From Streptomyces puniciscabiei (GTDB lineage: Bacteria; Actinomycetota; Actinomycetes; Streptomycetales; Streptomycetaceae), in the NCBI RefSeq assembly GCF_006715785.1, contig NZ_VFNX01000005.1:62001-126000 (forward strand): 64,000 nucleotides of DNA, written 5' to 3'. A model generated the notes under the pieces. That model was not told the DNA's origin. It saw only the letters and a list, made by a program, of their open reading frames with translations, and ran no database searches. Made by a program: the position numbers and the translations under genes. Shown one piece after another: positions 27,612-32,321 of this stretch. How positions within the stretch are numbered: position 1 is the stretch's first letter; the number at the start of each line of letters is the position of its first letter.

Positions 27612-28999
27612 GCGGGCCGCGTACGACCCGGGGCCGTCTGCTGCTGGTCCTCGCCCTCGCCGCCGCGGTCACCGTCTTCACCGCCACCGTGCCGCTGCTG
27701 CGCGGTTTCTTCGACCTGCGCGTCTACTACGGCACCGTGCACACCTGGATGCACCACGGCGGCCTGATCTACGACTACCGGGTGCCCGGCACCTCGTACG
27801 GCTTCACCTATCCGCCGTTCGCGGCGCTCACCATGCTGCCGCTGGCCCTGCTGGACCGGACCTCGGCGATCGCCGCGTCCCTGCTGGTCAATCTGGCCGC
27901 GCTGGCGGTGGTCCTGCGGATCCTGGCCGGCCCGGACTGGCGGCGGCACGGCTGGTACCGCTGGTCGCTGTGCCTGTGCCTGCTCGCGCTGTTCGAGCCG
28001 CTGCGGGACACCTTCAGTTTCGGCCAGGTCAACCTGGTGCTGCTCGCCCTTGTTCTGGGGGACTGCCTGCTGCTGGCGGCCGGCCGGGAGCGCTGGGCGG
28101 GCGCGGGGATCGGTCTCGCCGCAGCCGTGAAGCTCACGCCCGCCCTGTTCATCGGTCTGCTGCTGCTCGCCGGACGGCGCCGGGCGGCCGGCGTCGCGAC
28201 GGCCGTGGCCGTCGCGGCGACCGCGCTGGCCGCCTGGGCGGACCCGCGCGCGTCCCGTTTCTACTGGACCGAGGCGCTGTGGGACACCGGCCGGGTGGGC
28301 CGGCTCGACTATGTGTCGAACCAGTCGCTCCAGGGTGTGCTGGCCCGCCTCGGCGAGCCGGGCCGCCCGCTGTGGGCGACGGCGGTCCTGCTGACCCTGT
28401 GCGTCTGGGCATGGCGCACCCGCCGGGCCGTGCGGGCCGGTGACTGGACGGCGGCCTTCGCGCTGACCGGGGCGGCGGCCTGCCTGGTCAGCCCCATCAC
28501 CTGGGTGCACCACCTGGTGTGGCTGCTGCCGTCGTTCGCGGTGCTGCTGCGTGCCGAGCACCCGCGGGTCGCGGGCGCCCTGTACGCGGTGCTGTGCACG
28601 AGCGTGGTCTGGCTGTGGTTCGACGACGCCTCCGGTGTCGGTGGCTTTCTCGGCAGCAACACCTACACCTGGATCACACTGGGCCTCCTGCTCGGCCTGC
28701 CGACGGGTCAGCCGCGCGGGGTCCGCCTGCTCCAGGGCCGGAGCACCGCCACCGTCGCGGCCCCGGCGGCGAGACCCGCGAGCCCCGCGGCGGCGGCGCG
28801 GGCCGGCCAGCCCCAGTCGCCGTCCCGCGCCCGCGACGTCGCCGCGGCCGCGACCACCGGTGGGGCCGTCGACGCCGGCCGGGACTTGACGCGCAGCCCG
28901 TCCAGCGAGCCGACCGGATCCACCCGGCCGGCCGCGGCGAAGCCCCAGTCGAGCAGCTCGCGCGCCTCCTCGTACACCGCCAAGCCGCCGCCGTGCTGA
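27608..28999 (+). CDS. GT87 family (DUF2029) mannosyltransferase with long C-terminal tail
   Basis: A 463-residue GT-C glycosyltransferase of the alpha-1,2-mannosyltransferase type. Ten or so membrane segments cover residues 12-375; the external loop holds FDLRVYYGTVHTWMHHGG, then YGFTYPPFAALTMLPLA, and FGQVNLVLLAL is a family string. GTG 27608 overlaps the previous stop. The final 97 codons, past VRLLQGRS, are Ala/Ser/Pro-rich and lie antisense to the convergent carboxypeptidase gene; no earlier in-frame stop exists. The tail is likely a disordered extension or the result of a lost stop codon. Confidence 0.82.
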   Translation: MSGPRTTRGRLLLVLALAAAVTVFTATVPLLRGFFDLRVYYGTVHTWMHHGGLIYDYRVPGTSYGFTYPPFAALTMLPLALLDRTSAIAASLLVNLAALAVVLRILAGPDWRRHGWYRWSLCLCLLALFEPLRDTFSFGQVNLVLLALVLGDCLLLAAGRERWAGAGIGLAAAVKLTPALFIGLLLLAGRRRAAGVATAVAVAATALAAWADPRASRFYWTEALWDTGRVGRLDYVSNQSLQGVLARLGEPGRPLWATAVLLTLCVWAWRTRRAVRAGDWTAAFALTGAAACLVSPITWVHHLVWLLPSFAVLLRAEHPRVAGALYAVLCTSVVWLWFDDASGVGGFLGSNTYTWITLGLLLGLPTGQPRGVRLLQGRSTATVAAPAARPASPAAAARAGQPQSPSRARDVAAAATTGGAVDAGRDLTRSPSSEPTGSTRPAAAKPQSSSSRASSYTAKPPPC

Positions 29000-29892
29000 G
29001 GGTTCATCACGGTCACCACCAGCGTGCGTGCGCCATGCCGGGCGGCCGCCACCAGGGTGTTGCCCGCGTTGCTGGTGTAGCCGTTCTTGATGCCGATCAG
29101 CCCGGGATACTTCACCACGCCGTTCGCACCGGTCAGCAGCCGGTTGGTGTTCCGGATGCCGAACGACGCGCCGTCCCCGGGGAAGTACGCCTCCGCGGTC
29201 GAGCAGTAGCGGGCGAAGTCGGGATTGCGCAGGCCCTCCCGGCCGAAGACCGCCAGGTCGTAGGCGGAGGACACCTGGCCGTCGGCGTCGTAGCCGTCGG
29301 GGGAGACGACATGGGTGTCCAGGGCGCCGAGTGAGCGCGCCTTGGCCTGCATCGCGGCGGCCGTGGCCGACCACCCGCCGTTCAGCGAGGCGAGCACGTG
29401 CACGGCGTCGTTGCCCGAGTTGAGGAAGACACCGCGCCACAGGTCGGCCACCTGGTAGGTGTGTCCCTCCTGGACGCCGACCAGGCTGCTGCCCGGGCCG
29501 ATGTCCGCCAGTTCCTCGTCGCGCACGGTGTGCCGCATCGTGGCGGGCAGGGACGGCAGCACGGTGAGGGCGAACAGGGTCTTCAGGGTGCTCGCGGGCG
29601 GCAGCTTGCGGTGCGCGTCGCCGGCGGCCAGTACCGCCCCGCTGCCGGCGTCGGCCACCACCCAGGACAGCGCCGACACCTCCGGCAGTTCGGGCGCGTC
29701 GCGGTGCGGCCGGACCTGGGTGCCGGAGCGGTAGAGCTGGGACGGCTGGGGCATGACCGCCCGGGGCCCGGGCGGGGCGGGTTCCCCGGTACGGGGCCCG
29801 GCGGAGGCGGCGGCGGGGGAGAGTGCCAGTACGCCGGCCGCGCACAGGGCACAGGCCGACACGGCCACCCGATGAGAAAGTCCGCTGATCAT
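28708..29892 (-). CDS. D-alanyl-D-alanine carboxypeptidase (low-molecular-weight PBP)
   Basis: A 394-residue secreted, C-terminally anchored serine peptidase. Signal peptide at residues 1-31 (cleavage near AASAG). Catalytic motifs are SxxK as STLK near residue 103, SGN as NSGNDAV, and the third box as IKNGYTSNAG, where KNG stands in place of the common KTG. A membrane segment (LAGLAAGAATVAVL) and a basic tail end the protein. The start codon sits in the palindrome GATCATATGATC. The last 292 bases overlap the convergent GT87 gene. Role: trimming of peptidoglycan pentapeptides. Confidence 0.9.
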   Translation of the reverse strand: MISGLSHRVAVSACALCAAGVLALSPAAASAGPRTGEPAPPGPRAVMPQPSQLYRSGTQVRPHRDAPELPEVSALSWVVADAGSGAVLAAGDAHRKLPPASTLKTLFALTVLPSLPATMRHTVRDEELADIGPGSSLVGVQEGHTYQVADLWRGVFLNSGNDAVHVLASLNGGWSATAAAMQAKARSLGALDTHVVSPDGYDADGQVSSAYDLAVFGREGLRNPDFARYCSTAEAYFPGDGASFGIRNTNRLLTGANGVVKYPGLIGIKNGYTSNAGNTLVAAARHGARTLVVTVMNPQHGGGLAVYEEARELLDWGFAAAGRVDPVGSLDGLRVKSRPASTAPPVVAAAATSRARDGDWGWPARAAAAGLAGLAAGAATVAVLRPWSRRTPRG

Positions 29893-29993: not shown

Positions 29994-31142
29994 TCAGCCG
30001 GCGGGCAGGGTGGGCAGGATCTGCCGCAGGAACGCGGCGTTGTCGGGCGTGGAGCGCAGCCGCTCCAGGAGGGTCTGAAGGCCGGACGGGCCGCCCTCGC
30101 GGGAGCGCAGGACCCGGCGCAGACCGTGTACGGCCGCCAACTCGGCCGGAGTGAGGAGGAGTTCCTCGCGTCGGGTGCCGGTGGCGTCGAGGTCCACGGC
30201 GGGGAAGAGGCGCCGGGCGGCGGACTCCCGGTCCAGGCGCAGCTCCATGTTGCCCGTGCTCTTCAGCTCCTCGAAGTAGTAGCCGTCGGCGCGCGAGCCG
30301 GTGTCCACCAGGACGGTGGCGAGGATGGTCAGCGAGCCGCCCTCCTCGGCCTGCCGGGCGGCGCCGAAGAACCGCTTCGGCCCGAGCAGCGCGCCCGCGT
30401 CGACACCGCCGCTCAGGGTGCGGCCGCCGGCGGCGGAGGCGTTGTTGTGCGCCCGGCACAGCCGGGTCAGCGAGTCCAGCAGGATCACGACGTCCTCGCC
30501 GGCCTCCACCAGGCGCTTGGCCCGTTCGACGACGAGCTCGGCGAGCGCGATGTGCTCCTTGGGCGTCCGGTCGAAGGTGGAGGCGTACACCTCGCCGCGC
30601 ACCGAGCGGCGCATCTCGGTGACCTCCTCGGGGCGCTCGTCCAGCAGCAGGACGATCAGCCGGCACTCGGGGTGGTTGCCGGCCACGGCGGCTGCGAGCT
30701 GCTGGAGCAGCACCGTCTTGCCGCTCTTCGGCGGGGCCACGATGAGTCCGCGCTGGCCCTTGCCGACCGGCGCGAAGAGATCGGTGACGCGCCCGGCCGG
30801 TCCGGACGCGGGGTGTTCGAGGCGGATGCGCTCGTGCGGGTGGAGCGGGGTGAGGTCGCGGAAGTGACGCCGGCCGCGGAGGTCCGCCGGGTCGCGGCCG
30901 TCGACGCGCGTGATCCCGGTCAGCGCGCGCCGGTCATTTTGGACGCCTTCGACGAGGTCGCCCTTGCGCAGCCCATGGCGCCGGATCAGGCCCGGCGCGA
31001 CCTGGGGATCCGCGGGGGAGGCCAGCAGGTGCGCGGCCCGCAGGTGCCCCTTCCCCTGCGCGTCGATGTCGAGGACACCGGTGACGAGCCGGGCGGCCGG
31101 GGCCTGCTGGACCACGGGAGGGTGTTCGAGTGTGGTGGTCAT
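29994..31142 (-). CDS. rho: Short paralogue of transcription terminator Rho
   Basis: A 382-residue RecA-type RNA helicase of the Rho family. It lacks the N-terminal helix bundle and the large insertion of the usual actinobacterial Rho. The OB-fold region (18-70) reads QGKGHLR where E. coli has DGFGFLR, so the RNA-stacking aromatics are gone. The motor is intact: Walker A APPKSGKT (Lys142), DERPEEVTEM, LLDSLTRL, and the R-loop. Numbering runs 42 behind E. coli without gaps, and Ser295 replaces Gly337, a known bicyclomycin-resistance position. AAAGGA precedes the ATG. It is probably a second, special-purpose Rho. Confidence 0.9.
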   Translation of the reverse strand: MTTTLEHPPVVQQAPAARLVTGVLDIDAQGKGHLRAAHLLASPADPQVAPGLIRRHGLRKGDLVEGVQNDRRALTGITRVDGRDPADLRGRRHFRDLTPLHPHERIRLEHPASGPAGRVTDLFAPVGKGQRGLIVAPPKSGKTVLLQQLAAAVAGNHPECRLIVLLLDERPEEVTEMRRSVRGEVYASTFDRTPKEHIALAELVVERAKRLVEAGEDVVILLDSLTRLCRAHNNASAAGGRTLSGGVDAGALLGPKRFFGAARQAEEGGSLTILATVLVDTGSRADGYYFEELKSTGNMELRLDRESAARRLFPAVDLDATGTRREELLLTPAELAAVHGLRRVLRSREGGPSGLQTLLERLRSTPDNAAFLRQILPTLPAG

Positions 31143-31155
31143 GTGGGAGGTCCTT

Positions 31156-31371
31156 TCACGGACGGAAGACCGAGAGTGGCGAGGGGGGAGAGGCCGCGAG
31201 CGGGAGGCCTTGACAGCTGCCTCCGGGCGGCGGGAACGGCACCTCGGGTATGGCGGAAACGCCCTGGTCACGAGGTGGTGCAGAGAAGAAGCCCGGGCCG
31301 GACGGAAGCCTCGGCCGGGGGCTGATGGAGAGAAGAGCGGCGCCGGTGTCCGTACGCCGGGACACGCACAC
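31156..31371 (-). CDS. Possible leader ORF upstream of the Rho paralogue
   Basis: A 71-codon frame starting GTG 31371, about 5 bases after the predicted transcription start, and stopping (TGA) within the Rho gene's ribosome binding region (TGAAAGGACC). The peptide is rich in Pro and Ser, with a PPPGG motif of the kind that can stall ribosomes. Third codon positions are less G/C-biased than in nearby genes, so it may be a regulatory leader ORF or just chance. The transcript in this stretch is C-rich and poor in G near its 3' end, as Rho-loading sites are. Confidence 0.4.
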   Translation of the reverse strand: MCVSRRTDTGAALLSISPRPRLPSGPGFFSAPPRDQGVSAIPEVPFPPPGGSCQGLPLAASPPSPLSVFRP

Positions 31372-31382
31372 GCTCTGATCGC

Positions 31383-31410
31383 ACTATACCCGTGCGCTCG
31401 GTTCGGTCAA
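31383..31410 (-). promoter_or_regulatory. Promoter of the Rho paralogue
   Basis: On the minus strand, TTGACC (31410-31405), a 16-base spacer and TATAGT (31388-31383). Transcription should begin near 31376 and give a leader of about 230 bases before the Rho start. A strong vegetative-type promoter by Streptomyces standards. Confidence 0.7.
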
Positions 31411-31483
31411 CATCCCGCCGCAGCCGTCCATTCCCGCCCCCGCGCGCTGCAGCACCACCTCGGCCAGTTGGTATTCGGCTGCC

Positions 31484-32172
31484 CATGTTCAACCTGGACC
31501 TGCTGAAGATCCCGTCCTTCGCGGCGGGCGCCGTCGTCGCCCTCACGGACAGGTTCGGGTTGATCGGCACCGCCTACTGCGTCTCCATCCGGCTCGGCGC
31601 CGTGACGCATCTCAGCGCGCTCAGGGCCGGCCTGCCGTTCGTCATCCTCCAGATCGTCCCGCTGCTGCTCGCGCCGGTGCTCAGCCGGATGCTCGCCCGG
31701 GTCGAGCCGCGCACCCTGCTCATGGGCGGACTGCTGCCGATGGCGGCCGGTCAGTTCAGGACTGCCGCGCTGCCCGTCACCACCACCTCGCTCGCCGCCT
31801 TCATCGGCCCGGTGCTGCTCGGTATCGGCTTCATCCGCGTGGTCTCCTTGCCTGGTCCGGGAGTTCGGGCAGGGCCTCGGGCCCGCGGTGATCAGCACCG
31901 GCGCGATGAGCGCCGCGTCCTCGGCTCTGGCGGGCAAACCGGCCGGCACCGACACGGGCATGGAGGCGGCGGCCGGGCCGCTCGCCGTGGTCAGCGCCGG
32001 CAGCGACGGCGCCAGGGCCGCGGCACAGAGCGCGCTCGGCCACGGCATGGCCCTCGGCGTGGTGGTCTGCGGCTGCGCCTCGCTCCTCGGCGCGCTGGTC
32101 ACCCTGTTGCTGCTGCGCGGGAACTCGGCCCGTGCGGCGGTGGCGGCGGCGGTGCCGAGCGCGTCCGTGTGA
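31484..32172 (+). pseudogene. Decayed MFS (DHA2-type) drug transporter
   Basis: Only the second half of a 14-helix exporter is present. FNLDLLKIPSFAAGAVVAL, followed by LTDRFGLIGTAYCVS and SALRAGLPFVIL, match the middle of DHA2 transporters. Near 31850 an internal deletion and frameshift interrupt the protein; it resumes in another frame as LVREFGQGLGPAVIS and ends ALGHGMALGVVV...LLGALVTLLLLRG with stop 32172. The first six or more helices are missing. It lies divergent to the Rho paralogue, so it once shared its regulatory region. Confidence 0.8.
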
Positions 32173-32321
32173 GCCGCAGGCGACACTGGAGGGCCGGGGC
32201 CTCGCACCCCGGCCCTTTCGCTGGGGCCTGTCCTGTGAGGGAACCGCATCAGATGTCCCCAGACCATAACGATCCCGGACGTCGGGGGACTTGACCGTCA
32301 ACCGTGGACTATTTTCAAGGC

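Follow-up and report, generated by a model that had tools for sequence, protein, structure and literature searches.

Comparison of rho genes across Streptomyces points to a second, accessory Rho (Rho2) that would be gated by Rho activity at the leader of its own gene and would act without canonical Rut recognition. To this reading, taken jointly with Rho2 being an old accessory Rho paralogue of Streptomyces and, as a sister group, of Streptosporangiaceae, we give a probability of roughly 0.38. The usual view is that a genome has a single rho gene, whose product selects RNA through its primary site. A second Rho that is conserved in roughly half of the Streptomyces species sampled, appears to lack this site and is tied to a conserved leader of its own opens three questions to experiment, namely whether Rho motors can be mixed or directed to other targets, by what means Rho is backed up in the cell, and for what reason bicyclomycin-making Streptomyces tolerate the compound. 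No account of a second Rho in Streptomyces or of its leader was found in the open-access literature, searched mostly at the level of listings, and in the accessible part of PMC11109978, which lists new Streptomyces RNA motifs, rho is named only in a reference. The gene lies in the window, that is, the whole stretch of 64,000 nucleotides of Streptomyces puniciscabiei DNA that was analysed, and its features are given in Table 1.

Table 1. Features of the rho2 locus in the window.
Feature	Position	Strand	Basis
D-Ala-D-Ala carboxypeptidase (Peptidase_S11), co-directional, downstream of rho2	28708..29892	minus	domain scan
rho2, 382-aa accessory Rho (motor residues kept, without long N-terminal extension)	29994..31142	minus	ORF, alignments
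Codon of Ser295 (EcRho Gly337)	30258..30260	minus	computed from reading frame
Rho_RNA_bind domain, residues 21-85, primary RNA-binding site degenerate	30888..31082	minus	domain scan, alignment
C-rich, G-poor leader with hairpins CACCTCG/CGAGGTG and GCCGC/GCGGC	31143..31331	minus	skew, hairpin comparison
Shine-Dalgarno-like GAAAGGAC; 3' part inside small GUCC-GUGAAA-GGAC hairpin	31150..31157	minus	hairpin in most of 33 leaders
Leader element: -10-like TATAGT, then 5' hairpin (model R1, 41 bits, E 2e-6 in genome)	31332..31392	minus	covariance model
GGGAAT-N18-GTT, SigR-promoter-like	31409..31435	minus	pattern

The Rho2 protein and its relatives

The earlier note on this DNA had described a second, short Rho with all motor motifs, aligned at a constant offset of 42 with E. 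coli Rho (EcRho) and carrying a serine where EcRho has Gly337, and this description holds throughout. The 382-residue paralogue is real; its K142, M177, S224, K294 and S295 align with EcRho K184, M219, S266, K336 and G337, and K184, E211, R212, E215, D265, S266, R269, K336, R353 and R366 (EcRho numbering, used from here on) are all kept. The reading frame starts with the ATG at 31142, preceded by the Shine-Dalgarno-like GAAAGGAC, and 382 residues is also the length of most of the 120 nearest database proteins listed. The protein has the Rho ATPase motor (ATP-synt_ab/RecA, with the Walker A lysine, the catalytic glutamate and the arginine fingers) and the PF07497 domain, in which the residues that form the OB-fold primary RNA-binding site of E. 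coli Rho, F62, F64, Y80, E108 and Y110, are replaced or deleted. A phage origin of rho2 finds no support, as there is no PHROG match. The genome contains one other full Rho, the main Rho, which is encoded on another contig (C1:1684129-1685235, within a 685-aa frame) and is 56% identical to Rho2. A weak third match to Rho2 (G000:C1:1668366-1669004; 30% identity, E 5.5e-4), ~15 kb from the main rho, is perhaps another RecA-type ATPase.

Rho2, counted as a second match that outscored any main Rho, was found in 107 of 199 Streptomyces genomes, and the anatomy of the protein was followed in an alignment of 84 of these 107, 21 Streptomyces main Rhos and E. coli Rho, with loci fetched twice counted once. 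K184, E211, R212, D265, S266, R269, K336 and R366 are kept in 84/84 Rho2 and R353 in 83/84, and the sequence also retains the arginine fingers together with most secondary-site loops. At the primary site, positions 62, 64, 80 and 110 carry no aromatic residue in 68/84 Rho2 and a single one in 16/84, never more. Position 62, which is Phe in E. coli and Tyr in main Rho, is never aromatic and is mostly Lys (46) or His (17); at the position of Phe64, 38 proteins have His and 16 retain an aromatic residue; that of Tyr80 is Gln in 62 and that of Tyr110 is Gln, Pro or Arg in 77, with an aromatic in none at either; and the loop of positions 102-109 is gapped in 77-79 of the 84. Arg66 (83/84) and Asp78 (84/84) are retained. 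Taken together, these residues suggest that the motor of Rho2 is intact and that the usual RNA-gripping primary site has been worn away, and this loss makes a plain back-up Rho unlikely.

The same alignment places the serine in a wider context. Among 138 positions that are invariant in 44 other Rhos, the Rho2 majority deviates at 11, namely 64, 72 and 80 in the RNA-binding domain, 330, 331, 335 and 337 just after the R-loop, and 168, 195, 220 and 306. Four of the 11 fall at 330-337, so that Ser337 is not an isolated change but belongs to a remodelled segment after the R-loop.

A scan of 296 genomes across the class gave twelve genomes outside Streptomyces with two Rho matches, of which ten belong to a single family (f17) and the others to f4 and f37; the named short Rhos are those of Nonomuraea, Planobispora and [Actinomadura] parvosata, all Streptosporangiaceae. 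Eight Streptosporangiaceae-type short Rhos were read, four named and four from family f17 (L034, L036, L037, L039, L297, L298, L299 and L300), and all eight read GERPEE, which corresponds to EcRho D210G; a long Rho of family f17, presumably the main one, has Asp at 210. Six Streptosporangiaceae-type short Rhos have no aromatics at 62 and 80 and lack most of the loop, with Phe64 in 4/6 and Tyr110 in 2/6, so that the loss of the primary site is less complete. In a tree of 81 rows, built without column 337 and including 56 Rho2 (that of S. typhae among them), the Streptomyces Rho2 and six Streptosporangiaceae-type short Rhos form one clade (SH-aLRT 96), a grouping that is less than certain because this is a quick tree with long branches.

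No internal stop codon is present in any of the 107 Streptomyces Rho2 matches, and the dN/dS (NG86) of rho2 against six close relatives is ~0.18-0.32. Both observations, and the conservation of the leader with rho2 in 104/107, argue against Rho2 being a redundant duplicate that is being lost, with Ser337 as neutral drift; that view could appeal to the 92/199 Streptomyces genomes that show no Rho2, to a genome in which most of rho2 after the leader element is gone and to the alternation of Ser and Gly at 337, and we regard it as highly improbable. The genome in question, G160 (L331, G160:C50:31001-38000), has a natural internal deletion: of rho2, just the 3' end (residues 314-382) is left after the leader element, and the S11 carboxypeptidase gene, 71% identical, comes next. 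Of 81 rho2 loci, 45 have a co-directional carboxypeptidase gene no more than 3.5 kb downstream; farther downstream are glutaminase, aspartase-like lyase and asparaginase genes, and nothing among the genes scanned near rho2 points to an antibiotic cluster. Divergent from rho2, on the plus strand of the window at 31392-32294, there is an apparently frame-broken stretch with partial likeness to an MFS transporter (weak PF07690, below cut-off).

A patchy but constrained distribution, together with the kept motor residues, the lost primary site and the 56% identity between the two Rhos of S. puniciscabiei, is also what would be expected if Rho2 were a modulator subunit within Rho hexamers, which by contributing fewer primary sites or an altered motor would damp or retarget termination, for example in development or stress. 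We consider this rather unlikely, and mixed rings with Rho are one of the forms that the accessory Rho proposed here might take.

Site 337 and bicyclomycin

Streptomyces make bicyclomycin, and the earlier note had read Ser295 as marking a resistant back-up Rho, for self-protection or for defence against neighbours. Rho2 indeed carries a substitution at a known resistance site, Ser at Gly337, G337S itself being one of the E. coli bicyclomycin-resistance changes; no paper containing both G337S and bicyclomycin was found in the open-access literature. The note had also asked whether the housekeeping Rho has serine at this site, and it does not: the main Rho of S. puniciscabiei has Gly, as have 21/21 Streptomyces main Rhos read. 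In 80 loci of named genomes, the Gly motif is found in 73 and the Ser motif in one, the Rho2 of S. typhae, and six fall outside the motif pattern, four of these being Streptosporangiaceae short Rhos with Gly at the site.

Within the 84 Streptomyces Rho2, the site is Ser in 65 and Gly in 19, and 12 changes between the two are needed on the best tree of 56 Rho2 (in the group table of the tree, the well-supported branches by themselves already require the Ser label to change 9 times and the Gly label 8 times). Codons were read for 79 of the 84, and the 61 that encode Ser are all AGC, a single step away from GGC. The presence of Gly in 19/84 and the 12 changes speak against Ser337 as a fixed resistance mark. 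A total of 24 resistance positions are known according to the accessible part of PMC6934819, the title of whose reference 33 speaks of 38 mutants, and by a rough estimate about one coincidence of the changed residues with these positions would be expected by chance, so that the one found is not surprising.

We also compared the distribution of Rho2 with that of the bicyclomycin biosynthesis (bcm) genes, using the gene set as given in the accessible part of PMC5930311 and calling BcmA-like genes at E<=1e-40 in 392 genomes. Such a gene was found in nine of the 392, in two of them as part-length matches only, and the S. puniciscabiei genome has no BcmA match at this threshold; it has one CDPS, around which a comparison of sequences alone gave no set of mutually similar ORFs within 20 kb. 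Rho2 is present in 1/9 BcmA-bearing genomes against 106/193 others (Fisher p 0.014, or 0.097 when only the 6 BcmA genomes of the 199-genome set are counted, both values ignoring kinship), and in the single genome that has both, rho2 lies about 200 kb from the bcm cluster. Nine CDPS regions were opened, a selection without the regions around the BcmA-like genes in G249, G299 and G300, and a bcm-type set was found in three (G165, G139 and G064; Rho2 only in G064), each with a CDPS, 4-5 mutually similar ORFs and a P450, the dioxygenase and P450 assignments being Pfam-confirmed for part of them. Thus, rho2 is neither linked to bcm clusters nor found together with them as a rule, and self-protection of a bicyclomycin producer, as the note had suggested, finds no footing in its own genome or in eight of the nine that bear BcmA. 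Bicyclomycin-type clusters of this make-up, with a weak CDPS, 4-5 similar dioxygenase-like ORFs and a P450, are those at the three Streptomyces loci L244, L246 and L250. At L248 (G035:C10), just two related dioxygenase-like ORFs accompany a BcmA-like CDPS, and the pathway there may be a shortened one of the bcm type.

What remains of the resistance reading is Rho2 as a back-up Rho in which Ser337 and the neighbouring changes would block the drug, so that termination would continue under attack. The restriction of Ser to Rho2 (65/84, against Gly in 21/21 main Rhos) stands in its favour. So does D210G in the eight related short Rhos, since, as we read the accessible part of PMC8967931 and the title of its reference 34, E. 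coli Rho D210G is a readthrough mutant from a set of bicyclomycin-resistant mutants. The accessible part of PMC6934819 adds that Streptomyces are not affected by bicyclomycin although the ATPase of S. lividans Rho is sensitive in vitro, and offers export or Rho dispensability as reasons; S. lividans Rho is indeed reported, in the part of PMC5379054 available, to be dispensable in rich media, and hence no resistant Rho need be invoked. Rho2 is a candidate for a further reason, only in those species that have it. Against a resistant back-up stand the 19 Rho2 with Gly and the 12 changes at the site, the near absence of Rho2 from BcmA-bearing genomes, its absence from 92/199 Streptomyces genomes and its degenerate primary RNA site. 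A role of Rho2 in bicyclomycin tolerance is possible; the resistance reading of Ser295 is a weak one, supported in part, and we find it quite unlikely that resistance is what Rho2 is for.

The leader of rho2

Comparative analysis shows that rho2 has a dedicated leader, composed of a promoter-like -10 box and a covarying predicted hairpin. The upstream block shared by the relatives consists of a TAnnnT box, often in a GTGGTAC context, followed by the hairpin AGCAC-[8 nt]-GCCC-loop-GGGC-GCCG-GTGC. The hairpin model was built from 68 of 81 leaders that were caught by a text pattern, with the leader of the window outside these and found afterwards. Since the pattern itself required the -10-like box, both outer arms and an approximate inner stem, most invariant columns are partly built in, as are the 97.9% of paired cells in the 68 aligned leaders. 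Compensatory changes were no part of the pattern. Cells in which both sides had changed numbered 22, where shuffles averaged 2.2 and slid controls never exceeded 5; such changes fall at 4/9 hairpin pairs, a number reached by 11/500 shuffles. Neither this covariation nor the presence of the element in 36/39 Rho2 loci that were not used for the model depends on the choice of leaders in the same way.

At E<=1e-3, the covariance model gave 105 hits in the 199 genomes, one per genome, in a large search whose stricter filters lose some weak matches. All but one precede a rho2 gene of the same orientation, at a distance of 152-1611 nt (median 196) from the stretch matched, which places the element at rho2 in 104/107 Rho2 genomes, those without it at this threshold being G158, G137 and G186; the 105th precedes the deleted rho2 of G160. 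Fifteen weaker hits fall at E 0.0018-0.1, one at the rho2 of G158 and 14 elsewhere. A weak hit (E 0.056) was also seen in one Nonomuraea locus just upstream of the short rho, and the main rho locus L002 has none to E 1. A regulon sharing the hairpin is rejected, as the element is found only at rho2 at E<=1e-3 in the 199 genomes. A known RNA family was likewise rejected after Rfam searches with two leaders, in which that of the window gave no match to E 5 and that of L132 a single match, at chance level (E 9.3) and in the reverse orientation.

Between the hairpin and the start codon, the comparison indicates ~170 nt of C-rich, G-poor RNA. The C/G skew of this stretch has a median of 0.283 and a lowest value of 0.175 in 68 rho2 leaders, compared with a median of 0.009 and a 95th percentile of 0.204 in 972 windows upstream of other predicted ORFs, which are unmatched for leader length and of which many overlap coding sequence; 96% of the rho2 leaders exceed that percentile. 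In S. puniciscabiei, the skew is 0.29 in the rho2 leader and 0.11-0.16 upstream of the main rho. Two further hairpins and one over the Shine-Dalgarno sequence are predicted in most of 33 leaders, and the whole leader of the window folds slightly better than its shuffles (z -1.44; 16/200 as good). In composition the leader resembles a Rho-loading site; C-richness is no proof of loading, and the hairpins interrupt it.

The 5' hairpin could equally bind a protein or a ligand, or protect the mRNA, and the leader might then be a riboswitch or a protein-binding autoregulatory element, with Rho2 or another protein on the hairpin, instead of a Rho-loading attenuator. Conservation of both sequence and structure, as seen in the covariation and in the 36/39 recovery, and the partial pairing of the Shine-Dalgarno sequence in most of 33 leaders are in line with such an element; one copy per genome, only at rho2, would be unusual for a metabolite riboswitch class, and neither of the two leaders searched has an Rfam match. 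We hold this explanation to be rather unlikely, and attenuation by Rho is the mechanism that we carry forward.

Farther upstream, the sequence GGGAAY-N18-GTT, which we take to resemble the SigR (thiol stress) promoter consensus, is found exactly in 12/79 rho2 upstream regions (the window and 11 other Streptomyces, many of them close kin), compared with 9 occurrences in ~4585 control windows of 600 bases. It is also present in 5/8 Streptosporangiaceae-type loci, one more being a base away.

A proposed circuit and its likeness to known systems

In the circuit that we propose, the housekeeping Rho would load on the C-rich rho2 leader and end transcription early, and rho2 would be made only when the housekeeping Rho is inhibited, short in supply or outrun. 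Once made, Rho2 would not depend on canonical Rut recognition: it would form mixed rings with Rho, or another factor would recruit it to RNA as a motor. E. coli rho regulates itself through its leader by Rho-dependent attenuation, which makes attenuation at rho2 a natural idea and not a proven one. Bicyclomycin tolerance would be among the uses of this circuit, though selection need not have acted on it. In a more specific version, the leader would gauge the activity of the housekeeping Rho through Rho-dependent attenuation, and failure of that Rho would set free a second one that is Rut-blind and drug-tolerant. We view this version as distinctly unlikely; if true, it would contribute to explaining how many Streptomyces withstand bicyclomycin though their Rho is sensitive in vitro.

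The idea of resistance built into a Rho has a precedent in M. tuberculosis, whose Rho, according to the accessible part of PMC8828861, is naturally bicyclomycin-resistant through Met at EcRho Leu320; Rho2 instead keeps Leu in 84/84, which rules out this mechanism for it. Among protein models, NF041509 (paralog_Rho2, 'Rho, short form') describes a short Rho paralogue and spans nearly all of Rho2; however, the Rho2 of the window scores 464.5 bits against a cut-off of 628, seven other short Rhos (one a partial stretch) score 459-546 bits, all below the cut-off, and the core of the main Rho, at 580, scores above Rho2, so that Rho2 is not that family as defined. With the housekeeping Rho of E. coli, M. 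tuberculosis and Streptomyces (TIGR00767/PRK09376), Rho2 shares the motor domain, the Walker motifs, the arginine fingers and the Q- and R-loop region, and it passes the PRK09376 (NF006886) equivalog model with 454.1 bits (cut-off 315). It differs in having no long N-terminal extension of the actinobacterial kind, a degenerate primary RNA-binding site and a remodelled segment after the R-loop, and its 459.2 bits with the TIGR00767 equivalog model lie below the cut-off of 509.45. The closest likeness of the leader is to that of E. coli rho, as another rho gene with a leader on which Rho could act; the rho2 leader, known here from its sequence, differs in that it precedes an accessory rho and begins with a conserved 5' hairpin without an Rfam match.
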